Below, one piece after another: positions 4,184-19,882 of a stretch of 19,882 nt of DNA. Source of the DNA: Chloroflexota bacterium (lineage in GTDB: Bacteria; Chloroflexota; Dehalococcoidia; UBA1151; TMED-70). Both the position numbers and the translations under genes were made by a program. Numbering within the stretch: the stretch's first letter is position 1; each line of letters begins with the position of its first letter. The stretch is taken from contig PBLU01000016.1 in the NCBI GenBank assembly GCA_002721875.1, forward strand, positions 149,304 to 169,185, written 5' to 3'. The notes under the pieces are model-generated. The model saw only the letters and a list, made by a program, of their open reading frames with translations. It was not told the DNA's origin and searched no databases.

Positions 4184-6436
4184 ATGACAATAAATTTTGA
4201 ATCAAAAAAGGATTATAAGGTAATTGGTACCAATCCTATTAGGCATGATGGTTATGATAAGGTTACAGGGCGAGCTATCTATGGAGCAGATGTCAAGTTA
4301 CCTAATCTGATTTGGGCTGAAACATTAAGAAGCCCGTATGCTCATGCAAAAATTATTTCAATAGATACATCCAAGGCAGAAAAAATGGAAGGTGTTTTTT
4401 CTGTGATTACATCAAAAGATATACCAATTAATCAAAAGCCTGACGGAAATAAATCTATTAAAAGAGACGCTGATAATATTTTAGCTAGTAAAAAGGTACT
4501 GTATAAAGGTCATGCAGTTGCTGCAGTTTCAGCAAAAGATAGAAATACAGCTAAGGAAGCATGTAAATTAATAAAAGTTGAATATGAAGTCCTAGATCCC
4601 GTAAAAAATGTAGATGAAGCCATAGCTAAAAATGCGCCAATAATCTTAGAAGATTTAGAATCTGATCATTTGGGAGAGAAAGTTAGAAACAGCAATATTG
4701 CTCAACATTTTAGACATGCATTAGGAAACATAAAAGATGGATTTGAAAAAAGTGATCTTATAATTGAAAGAGAATTCAATCTTAAAATGGTTCATCAAGG
4801 ATATATTGAACCTCATAATGCTACAGCTCATTGGGACGAAAATGATCATTTATCATTATGGTCAAGCACTCAAGGACAATTTGCAGTGAGAGATCTAACA
4901 GCTGGATTTCTAGATTTATCAGTTTCAAAAGTGACAACCTTTCCAGTTGAAATTGGAGGAGGATTTGGAGGTAAAACTAAAGTATATCTACCTCCAATTG
5001 CGGCTATTTTATCTAAAAAATCAGGTTATAGGCCAGTAAAGATGATTATGGATAGAGTATCAGTGTTTCAAGGATCAGGTCCTGCTCCAGGAGGTAAAGT
5101 CATAGTTAAGATGGGTGTAAGTAATGATGGAAAAATACAGTCAGGATTGGTAGATCTAAAGTTTGAAGCAGGTGCCTTTCCAGGTTCTGCAATAGCAGCA
5201 GGATCAGTTTGTTGCCTTGCATGCTATAACATCCCTAACATACAAGTAGATGCATTTGACGTTTTGGTTAATAAACCTAAATCTGCTGCTTATAGGGCTC
5301 CTGGTTCACCTCAAGTATCATTTGCAGTAGAAAGTGTTATAGACGAAATATGCGAAAAAATGACTTGGGATAAAATTGATTTTAGAATCAATAATGCTTC
5401 TAAAGAAGGAACTAGAAAACCTGATGGAGTACTATTTCACAAGATAGGTTTTATCCAAACTTTAGAAGCCGCAAAACATAGTGAGCATTGGAATTCAAAA
5501 ATTAATAAAAGAAATAAAAATAAGATTTATGGCAGAGGACTTTCTTGTGGTTACTGGCATAATGGAGGAGGTAGATCAACTGTAGATCTAATGCTTCAGG
5601 ATGACGGTAATATAGCATTGAATGAAGGTTCAGCTGATATCGGAGGATCAAGAACTTCAATATCTATGCAAGTTGCAGAAACTCTTGGAATTCCCGCAGA
5701 AAGTGTACACCCATCAATTCCAGATACTGATACTATTGGATTTACTCAAACTACTGGTGGTTCTAGAACTACATATGCAACAGGATATGCAGGTTGGCAA
5801 GCAGCAAATAAATTGATTGAAGAAATGAAAAGAAGAGTTTCGATACTTTGGGAAGAACCTGAATCTGAAATTGTTTTTGATAAAGGTATTTTTATTTCTG
5901 AAGATTCAAAAAGAGAAATAGATATTTCGGAATTAGCATCAAAAATAAATCCTACTGGAGGACCAGTAACATCGACTGCTTCCGTTAATTTATCTGTAGC
6001 AGGAAACGGATTTGGGGTAGGGATTTGTGATATTGAAATTGATCCCCAAACAGGAAAAACAGATGTCATTAAATACACAGCTATCCAAGATGTTGGAAAA
6101 GCAATTTATCCTGCTTATGTGGAAGGACAAATTAAGGGTGGTGCTGTTCAAGGTATTGGATGGGCTTTAAATGAAGAGTACTATATTGAAGATGATGGAA
6201 GTATGGCAAATACTAGTTTTTTAGATTATAGAATGCCAACAGCTTTAGATATGCCAAACATCGATGTGATACTTGTAGAAGTACCTAATCCACTTCATCC
6301 TTTTGGTGTAAGAGGTGTTGGCGAAGTACCTATAGTTCCACCATTAGCAGCTGTAGGAAATGCAATTAATAATGCTATTGGGAAAAGATTATTTGAAACA
6401 CCAATGAATCCAAGAAAAATTCTAGAGGTTTTATAA
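4184..6436 (+). CDS. Molybdenum hydroxylase large subunit 2 (paralogue of subunit 1)
   Basis: This is a second catalytic subunit, 750 residues, and clearly a tandem duplicate of the upstream gene. Over residues 10-81, I count about 54 of 72 positions identical to residues 9-80 of the first copy. All key elements are kept: GGGFGGK at 258-264, AYRAPGSPQ at 369-377 and the catalytic E714 in GVRGVGEVP. It therefore looks active, not decayed. The copies differ more around residues 83-95 and 175-190, and near a Cys-rich SVCCLAC stretch (341-347), where copy 1 reads AVQCIFAP. These could alter the substrate channel or subunit contacts. No second medium or small subunit is nearby, so it probably shares them. 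A weak Shine-Dalgarno AAAGGA lies at 4167-4172. Substrate unknown. Confidence 0.9.
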   Translation: MTINFESKKDYKVIGTNPIRHDGYDKVTGRAIYGADVKLPNLIWAETLRSPYAHAKIISIDTSKAEKMEGVFSVITSKDIPINQKPDGNKSIKRDADNILASKKVLYKGHAVAAVSAKDRNTAKEACKLIKVEYEVLDPVKNVDEAIAKNAPIILEDLESDHLGEKVRNSNIAQHFRHALGNIKDGFEKSDLIIEREFNLKMVHQGYIEPHNATAHWDENDHLSLWSSTQGQFAVRDLTAGFLDLSVSKVTTFPVEIGGGFGGKTKVYLPPIAAILSKKSGYRPVKMIMDRVSVFQGSGPAPGGKVIVKMGVSNDGKIQSGLVDLKFEAGAFPGSAIAAGSVCCLACYNIPNIQVDAFDVLVNKPKSAAYRAPGSPQVSFAVESVIDEICEKMTWDKIDFRINNASKEGTRKPDGVLFHKIGFIQTLEAAKHSEHWNSKINKRNKNKIYGRGLSCGYWHNGGGRSTVDLMLQDDGNIALNEGSADIGGSRTSISMQVAETLGIPAESVHPSIPDTDTIGFTQTTGGSRTTYATGYAGWQAANKLIEEMKRRVSILWEEPESEIVFDKGIFISEDSKREIDISELASKINPTGGPVTSTASVNLSVAGNGFGVGICDIEIDPQTGKTDVIKYTAIQDVGKAIYPAYVEGQIKGGAVQGIGWALNEEYYIEDDGSMANTSFLDYRMPTALDMPNIDVILVEVPNPLHPFGVRGVGEVPIVPPLAAVGNAINNAIGKRLFETPMNPRKILEVL

Positions 6437-18985: not shown

Positions 18986-19007
18986 AAATATTCAAGACTG
19001 ATAATAT

Positions 19008-19024
19008 TTGATACCTAGTCTCAA
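19008..19024. promoter_or_regulatory. Operator-like palindrome, copy 1 (one mismatch)
   Basis: TTGATAC-CTA-GTCTCAA has the same half-sites as the other three copies, with one change in the right arm. It starts 89 bases before copy 2. Confidence 0.5.
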
Positions 19025-19096
19025 TAATGTGTAACTAGAAATTTATTTACAAATCATATCAATAAGTTGGAATCAACGTATGTACAGTAAAGTTAA

Positions 19097-19113
19097 TTGA
19101 TACATAATATCAT
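19097..19113. promoter_or_regulatory. Operator-like palindrome, copy 2 (near-perfect)
   Basis: TTGATAC-ATA-ATATCAT departs from consensus TTGATAy-N3-rTATCAA only at the last base. The arms also show a C-A mismatch at the centre-proximal position. It starts 77 bases before copy 3. Confidence 0.5.
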
Positions 19114-19173
19114 TATTATAAATTATGCAAATCTAAAATTAATAATGTATAATTTATAAATCGCTAATATTTA

Positions 19174-19190
19174 TTGATATTGCATATCAA
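19174..19190. promoter_or_regulatory. Operator-like palindrome, copy 3 (perfect arms)
   Basis: TTGATAT-TGC-ATATCAA has perfect 7-base arms around a 3-base centre. It lies about 45 bases upstream of the TATAAT at 19236. A lone half-site TTGATAT follows at 19197-19203. Confidence 0.65.
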
Positions 19191-19235
19191 AAATTATTGA
19201 TATAAATTTTATATATTTAGCGCCTTAAACTTGTT

Positions 19236-19241
19236 TATAAT
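19236..19241 (+). promoter_or_regulatory. Probable -10 box of the metal-binding protein gene
   Basis: A consensus TATAAT lies 70 bases before the ATG. No convincing -35 hexamer is present at the usual distance. Transcription would start near 19248, just before operator copy 4, so a bound regulator there would block the polymerase. Confidence 0.5.
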
Positions 19242-19262
19242 AGCTTAAGAATTAAAAAACAA

Positions 19263-19279
19263 TTGATACTAAGTATCAA
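19263..19279. promoter_or_regulatory. Operator-like palindrome, copy 4 (perfect 8-1-8)
   Basis: TTGATACT-A-AGTATCAA is a perfect palindrome with 8-base arms. It lies between the inferred transcription start and the Shine-Dalgarno, a classic repressor position. It starts 89 bases after copy 3, the same interval as copies 1 to 2. Confidence 0.65.
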
Positions 19280-19311
19280 ATACCAAAGATTTAGTAATGG
19301 AGGAAAAATAA

Positions 19312-19882
19312 ATGTTTCTTAAACATCTATCCAAGCTCGCATTGATAAGCATTTCAGTTATGATCTTTTTCGCATGTGAAAGTGCAGAAGAGACAATAAC
19401 CGATGTAGTATCTTCAGAAGATACTACAGAAGTTGTAATTGAAAGCGAAGAATTAGAAAAACTAAATGTTTTAGCGACTACACCTATGATTGGAGAATAC
19501 GTAAAGCAGGTAGGTAGTGATAATATAGACCTAAATATTTTGATGCCTTACTCTGTCGATCCACATGGTTTTGAGGCTTCCCCACAAGATGCAAAAAAAA
19601 TTGCAGATGCAGATCTGATTTTTTATGTTGGATTAAAATATGAATCAACAAGTCTAGTAGAACTGCTAGAAAATTCAGCCAAATCCCAGGATATTCTAAT
19701 TGAAATTGGTGAAAGTATAGACCCGATAGAATATTCTGAAGAAGGACATGATGACCACGAAGGGCATGATGACCATGAAGGACATGATGACCATGAAGGA
19801 CATGATGACCATGAAGGACATGATGATCATGACAAAGATAAAGATGATCACGAAGGGCATGATGACCATGAAGGACATGATG
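19312..19882 (+). CDS. Zinc/manganese-type ABC transporter substrate-binding lipoprotein (ZnuA/TroA-like), 3' end outside window
   Basis: This protein captures a divalent metal outside the membrane for an ABC importer. The ATG at 19312 follows GGAGGA at 19299-19304. The frame runs open to the window end, giving about 190 visible residues. A lipoprotein signal ends in FFAC (Cys22), followed by an acidic linker. The TroA-like fold then begins at LNVLATTPMIGEYVKQVG. VDPHGFEASPQDAKKIADADLIFYVG contains the first metal-ligand histidine in the family pattern DPHxFE. After IEIGESIDPIEY comes a His/Asp-rich loop of repeated GHDDHE units. That loop is the position and character of the zinc-scavenging loop in ZnuA-type proteins. 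Zinc is the best guess; manganese is possible. The upstream operator array fits a metal-sensing regulator. Confidence 0.9.
   Translation, partial: MFLKHLSKLALISISVMIFFACESAEETITDVVSSEDTTEVVIESEELEKLNVLATTPMIGEYVKQVGSDNIDLNILMPYSVDPHGFEASPQDAKKIADADLIFYVGLKYESTSLVELLENSAKSQDILIEIGESIDPIEYSEEGHDDHEGHDDHEGHDDHEGHDDHEGHDDHDKDKDDHEGHDDHEGHD
19744..19882 (+). repeat. 18-bp tandem repeat encoding the His/Asp-rich metal loop
   Basis: Units of 18 bases coding GHDDHE begin at 19744, 19762, 19780, 19798 and 19816. A 21-base interruption (DKDKDDHE region) follows, and units resume at 19855 and 19873 up to the window edge. Near-identity at DNA level suggests recent expansion. The array is coding and not CRISPR. 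Confidence 0.85.

Follow-up and report, generated by a model that had tools for sequence, protein, structure and literature searches.

The window, as we call the whole 19,882-base stretch of Chloroflexota DNA analysed here, carries repeated copies of one palindrome in the gap before a znuA-type gene, which raises the question of whether these copies are operators and, if so, of which regulator and for which metal. An initial annotation had described four 17-base palindromes in this 326-bp gap, two perfect and two with a single change, with starts 89, 77 and 89 bases apart; both the positions and the spacings were confirmed (Table 1). The gap (18986-19311) has a G+C content of 19.9% and contains all four TTGATAY-N3-RTATCAA palindromes, and the whole window holds no other match with up to two mismatches. 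An extra half-site, TTGATATAAATTTTATATA, lies just after copy 3 (19197-19215) and is retained in G001, the nearest genome compared, which has 60% of sampled 31-mers in common with the window.

Table 1. Coordinates of predicted operators, promoter elements and genes (window positions unless a locus is named)
Feature	Position	Strand	Remarks
Predicted Zur box, copy 1	19008-19024	n/a	TTGATACCTAGTCTCAA, 1 mismatch; counterpart at the same place in G001 is TTGAGACTAGGTATCAA
Predicted Zur box, copy 2	19097-19113	n/a	TTGATACATAATATCAT, 1 outer mismatch, 15-bp core intact; identical in G001
Predicted Zur box, copy 3	19174-19190	n/a	TTGATATTGCATATCAA, 0 mismatches; exact TATAAT 20 bp before
Predicted Zur box, copy 4 (proximal operator)	19263-19279	n/a	TTGATACTAAGTATCAA, 0 mismatches; ATG 32 bp on
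Possible -10 element, upstream promoter before copy 3	19148-19153	+	Exact TATAAT, also in G001; inferred
Probable -10 element, proximal promoter	19236-19241	+	TATAAT; exact TATAAT ahead of the proximal box in 7/7 promoters
znuA-type metal-binding lipoprotein, 5' part	19312-19881	+	PF01297; runs off the window end
Hydrophobic microprotein	L017:11204-11296	+	Conserved, 29-30 aa
Hydrophobic microprotein	L123	-	Conserved, 29-30 aa
Hydrophobic microprotein	L125:5568-5657	+	Conserved, 29-30 aa

The four palindromes in the window are beyond chance. Shuffles of the window are expected to yield 0.97 matches with up to two mismatches, and four were reached in 1 of 200; in dinucleotide shuffles of the 326-bp gap, one copy with up to one mismatch appeared in 15 of 5000 and two copies in 0 of 5000. 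A motif-independent test, which takes any perfect palindrome with 7-base arms and a spacer of 1 to 5 together with its relatives within two mismatches, counted four copies, a number reached by 0 of 2000 shuffles. This stricter version was run after a looser one had given a weak result, with five copies observed and 20 of 400 shuffles matching or beating that number. The even spread of the four sites has a probability of about 0.009 by chance.

We examined conservation in nine genomes of the genus (G001 to G009), a set that does not include the assembly of the window. The binding protein has relatives at the 17 loci compared, of which the five closest (L016 to L020) were assigned to G002, G004, G005, G008 and G009, in the same genus as G001. 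Seven znuA promoters were read, those of the window, G001 and L016 to L020; G007 was left out, as its contig starts inside the gene. Sites with up to two mismatches recur upstream of the znuA orthologues in the genus (four in G001, three each in L016, L017 and L019, two in L018 and one in L020), which supports the predicted operator array ahead of a gene for metal uptake. Six of the seven promoters have two to four boxes at wide spacing, as does a second target described below. The middle box of L016 centres a 37-bp palindrome, AGAGATTTAA-box-TTAAATCTCT (L016:5878-5914).

The relatives keep these sites within different flanks, which speaks against a simple duplication, a reading already set aside at the outset. 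Chance or sequence duplication in an AT-rich gap would draw on the G+C content of only 19.9%, on the looser palindrome test with its 20 of 400 shuffles, and on the 15 of 38 core matches in the genus that fall inside ORFs; but with the sites conserved despite different flanks, 0 of 2000 shuffles reaching the observed number in the stricter test, and 20 of 30 zur loci carrying the box while a control pattern occurs at none of the 30, we regard this explanation as vanishingly improbable.

To describe the box, 38 sites were listed by hand from the znuA, ZIP, zur and second-target promoters, a set distinct from the 38 core matches in the genus. They give the consensus TTGATAYNNNRTATCAA, in which the outer bases are weaker; TGA is invariant, and TCA is invariant except for two cells at its A. 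The sites conform to the 15-bp 7-1-7 inverted repeat of the Fur family, although both this agreement and the consensus are partly circular because the sites were selected by motif. In the window, the 15-bp core TGATAYNNNRTATCA agrees with a Fur-family 7-1-7 box in length and in its TGATA/TATCA arms. The earlier view that no known box could be matched with confidence, and that the regulator might be new, is not supported: the core has the geometry of the Fur family.

The proximal box ends 18 to 33 bp 5' of the ATG in all seven znuA promoters read, and an exact TATAAT ends 14 to 21 bp 5' of the same box in each. The last copy in the window, thought initially to lie between the likely transcription start and the ribosome site, does start 21 bp after the TATAAT and before the likely ribosome site. 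Among the 38 hand-listed sites, 11 have an exact TATAAT upstream, versus 7% of shuffled flanks, while hexamers matching TATAAT at five of six positions show no clear enrichment (19/38 versus 41% in shuffled flanks). A sigma-70 consensus scan, which also requires a -35 element, did not list the TATAAT promoter at 19236, and its yield in the gap region was near background (five promoters found versus 3.8 expected).

The gene downstream of the array, which the initial annotation had called a zinc-type binding protein, encodes a binding protein that matches the ZnuA family PF01297 at 74.3 bits (cut-off, 29). The reading frame ends in an Asp/His-rich stretch at the window edge. This repeat falls at the window end (19740-19882) and at contig ends in other assemblies (G001:C6, G005:C31 and G007:C5), so the operon is often split. 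In relatives, the operon order is znuA, an ORF with an HExxH-like motif, znuC and znuB. The HExxH ORF between znuA and znuC was located at L017:7547-7987 (+), L018:7319-7747 and L121:752-1180; the copy in L017 matches nothing in Pfam, and its match to the metallohydrolase model TIGR04338 is weak and below the cut-off. We considered G001:C1:1796 as the missing znu half and rejected it, as the position lies inside an unrelated ORF.

We then considered how the motif is distributed across genomes. In G001 (1.3 Mb), there are just two exact 17-mers, both in the znuA promoter; of 14 places with up to one mismatch, four are in that promoter and the other ten are all inside ORFs. Exact matches to the 15-bp core number 38 across the nine genomes of the genus, against three for the reversed pattern, and the znuA and ZIP promoters are among its targets. 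Sorted by mechanically called ORFs rather than annotated genes, 14 of these matches lie before znuA, 2 before ZIP, 6 at the second target, 1 elsewhere between genes and 15 in ORFs. The lone other intergenic match lies between convergent genes in G006. At L124, also of G006, box-like palindromes at 4853-4869 and 4897-4913, 44 bp apart, sit between convergent genes where no promoter is expected.

The ZIP matches come from G003 and G006, where the core is upstream of a ZIP transporter gene (PF02535); these are the two genomes (92% and 83% complete, respectively) in which a ZnuA search of the nine detected none. As in a Zur regulon, the box thus stands upstream of zinc-type uptake genes, whether znuA/znuACB or ZIP. 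At the second target, G002 and G005 have two boxes 86 bp apart before a DUF418/YeiB-like gene, G008 and G009 have two boxes (82 and 86 bp apart) before an uncharacterised ORF of 98 to 101 amino acids, and G007 has one box before this ORF. One box is changed in the core in every such pair except that of G005. Directly 5' of the 98- to 101-amino-acid ORF and downstream of the boxes is a conserved hydrophobic microprotein of 29 to 30 amino acids (Table 1), whose C-terminal pattern, with up to one mismatch, matches in 3 of 21 genomes. The longer ORF is present in six of the nine genus genomes, and its copies in G002 and G005 have no box nearby (up to three mismatches).

The search for a regulator covered the Fur, DtxR and ArsR families. 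A Fur-family protein was found in eight of the nine genus genomes, the exception being 64% complete; G002 has two near-identical copies and G001 a single one. The candidate regulator, 140 amino acids long in its G001 form, matches PF01475, the Fur family, at 83.8 bits (cut-off, 23.1). Its gene, zur, is flanked in G001 by SmpB and rhomboid genes. A rhomboid gene likewise stands ahead of fur-znuC in G012, as it does, by tblastn, in G140. DtxR/MntR and ArsR-type regulators control metal genes elsewhere, and one of them could in principle bind the sites here; this is highly improbable, as the DtxR C-terminal domain (PF02742) was found in 0/9 genus genomes, with 11 of 14 control genomes positive, and ArsR (PF01022) in 0/9 above the cut-off, with one weak match in G003 and 14 of 14 controls positive. 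With none above the cut-off in these nine genomes, both families were rejected as regulators.

For the Fur protein, 147 genomes of the order were searched with a protein alignment, and a match was found in 137. We read the 30 best-scoring loci of these 137 genomes, a choice made by score and not at random. The core, with up to one mismatch, lies within 200 bp before the Fur match in 20 of these 30 best zur loci, 8 of them exact, and no box was found in the other 10; the reversed-pattern control gave 0 of 30. With five already known genomes removed (G001, G010, G014, G018 and G019), the box is present in 17 of 25 loci, 6 of them exact. tblastn detected znuA- or znuC-like sequence in 23 of the 30 best loci, in 22 of them on the zur strand. 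In G019, an exact 17-mer lies immediately 5' of fur-znuA-znuC-znuB, where the last ORF of the run is read as znuB by its position, and in G010 fur-znuC-znuB begins with a copy that has one mismatch and an intact core. PF01297 genes are likewise preceded by one box in G011 and by two, 104 bp apart, in G012. Of the linked regulators that the initial annotation had proposed to scan for, of the Fur, DtxR or ArsR type, the one found is a Fur-family gene, in zur-znu operons that the box precedes. The sites are probably bound by a Zur-type member of the Fur family, which in relatives has this box ahead of its own gene, and not by a new type of regulator.

Within the genus itself, a zur gene carrying the same box, as found at 20 of 30 loci across the order, occurs at none of the nine zur loci, each examined over 450 bp upstream. 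The link within the genus is therefore made through target and clade and not through autoregulation. In a tree of 29 Fur proteins, a clade of 16 members with support of 100/98 includes all nine proteins of the genus, which come from eight genomes; five of the seven members from outside the genus are znu-linked. In genomes with a Fur protein outside this clade (G013, G015 and G021), there are five core matches, four of them in ORFs, and two ZnuA loci of G015 have no box upstream with up to two mismatches. The NCBI Zur equivalog model NF008646 (PRK11639; cut-off, 167) does not recognize the proteins, with 23.5 bits for G001, 27.0 for G019 and 28.9 for G010; the genus proteins score higher to Fur and PerR models, all below the respective cut-offs.

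We consider it very probable that the palindromes are operators of Zur, which would repress znuA when zinc is plentiful in this genus of marine SAR202-type Chloroflexota. At the level of sequence, this reading draws on the conserved array and the genes it targets, on the joint occurrence of box and Zur clade, and on the zur-znu operons that the box precedes. Binding, zinc as the effector, repression, the start sites and the mode in which sites cooperate are what we infer from these.

Zinc rather than manganese would be the metal. The solved relatives of the binding protein are ambiguous, as they include both manganese and zinc binders, the top one binding manganese; zinc is therefore suggested by the ZIP transporter in place of ZnuA, by the stretches rich in Asp and His, and by a match to AztC (zinc) that is below the cut-off but the best in NCBIfam for the protein. 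A Fur-family manganese or iron sensor (Mur- or Fur-like) over an operon importing manganese or a metal mix seems decidedly unlikely. It would be consistent with the manganese-binding relatives MntA and PsaA, found beside YcdH, a zinc-type protein of Bacillus subtilis; with the better, though sub-cut-off, scores of the Fur protein to Fur and PerR models; and with its being the sole Fur-family protein found in G001. The Asp/His-rich stretches, the ZIP transporter targeted where ZnuA is undetected and AztC as top match nevertheless favour zinc.

The box resembles operators described for other Fur-family proteins. The Zur box of Streptomyces coelicolor, tGaNNatSatNNtCa, is likewise a 15-bp 7-1-7 inverted repeat with TGA...TCA ends before znuA, a gene that there also has two boxes (PMC5472717). 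The SAR202 box differs from it in its inner arm, TAY...RTA, and in occurring in up to four copies with neighbours 75 to 127 bp apart. The B. subtilis Fur box, TGATAATNATTATCA (PMC5467902), also 7-1-7 (PMC5007448), is equal in length and has TGATA/TATCA arms at equal spacing (PMC5467902), whereas the SAR202 box has YNNNR rather than ATNAT at positions 6 to 10 and lies before zinc-type uptake genes and zur. The E. coli Zur box, TRWNAYRWTATAWYRTNWCA, which takes two dimers, is also a palindromic operator before znu genes (PMC6103462), but the SAR202 box differs in sequence, and the SAR202 protein scores below the PRK11639 Zur cut-off. Multiple Zur boxes in one promoter are known from B. subtilis yciC and S. 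coelicolor znuA, each with at least two boxes, overlapping the -35 and -10 elements (PMC6103462). In the genus studied here, unlike in these two promoters, the proximal box is downstream of the probable -10 element, and the other boxes end about 95 to 290 bp 5' of the ATG.

With plentiful zinc, a zinc-loaded Zur dimer would sit on each 15-bp core. At the proximal box, which lies shortly after the probable start of transcription, it would block promoter use or escape; at the upstream boxes, it may cover another possible promoter together with the DNA ahead of it, giving tighter or graded repression of the operon. As zinc falls, Zur would release the DNA and uptake would turn on. A review that notes promoters with at least two Zur boxes regards the boxes as most likely independent and as tightening repression (PMC6103462).

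The four even sites had earlier been taken to suggest cooperative binding or looping; for looping, we found no positive support. Box spacing ranges from 75 to 127 bp with a mean of 92.6 (n = 19, non-independent), and the helical phase of these 19 non-independent spacings is weak (R = 0.34), with no clear signal, so looping lacks support. Within the Zur reading, we consider it unlikely that the array acts through looping of the DNA or through Zur oligomers that cooperate over long distances. The two to four wide-spaced boxes in six of seven genus znuA promoters and at the second target would suit such action, as would the even spacing in the window (P of about 0.009) and the oligomeric binding of Zur described at S. 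coelicolor zitB (PMC5472717). The spacing is variable, however, with its weak phase concentration, L020 has a single box, and the proximal box and some others are downstream of their own TATAAT, an arrangement that fits separate operators. A bolder version, in which Zur is the only Fur/DtxR/ArsR-type sensor left in this streamlined marine genus and has lost its own operator, and in which the arrays of znuA and the second target (the hydrophobic microprotein with the small membrane ORF, or the YeiB-like gene) act together in a graded or switch-like manner, with Zur bridging distant sites, is less likely still.

Repression by Zur is a known type of switch, whereas the operator sequence and the wide spread of several sites seem to be peculiar to this lineage. 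The distinguishing points are the TAY-N3-RTA inner arm, the two to four widely spaced copies, and Zur as the only Fur/DtxR/ArsR-type sensor found in the genus. Among the papers searched, none dealt with SAR202 together with zinc uptake, and those that touch on both Chloroflexota and Zur are, judged by title, about other matters. RegPrecise 3.0 has a Chloroflexi collection of five genomes and lists Zur with the regulators that occur in over 25 groups; it may therefore already contain a Zur motif for Chloroflexi.

For SAR202-type ocean bacteria, the array offers a zinc-regulon signature open to testing, and it suggests a role in zinc rather than iron control for their Fur-family protein. If Zur is the sole sensor of its kind, iron regulation in these cells becomes an open question. 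The arrays of two to four sites would also form a natural series for the effects of operator number and spacing on a Fur-family repressor.
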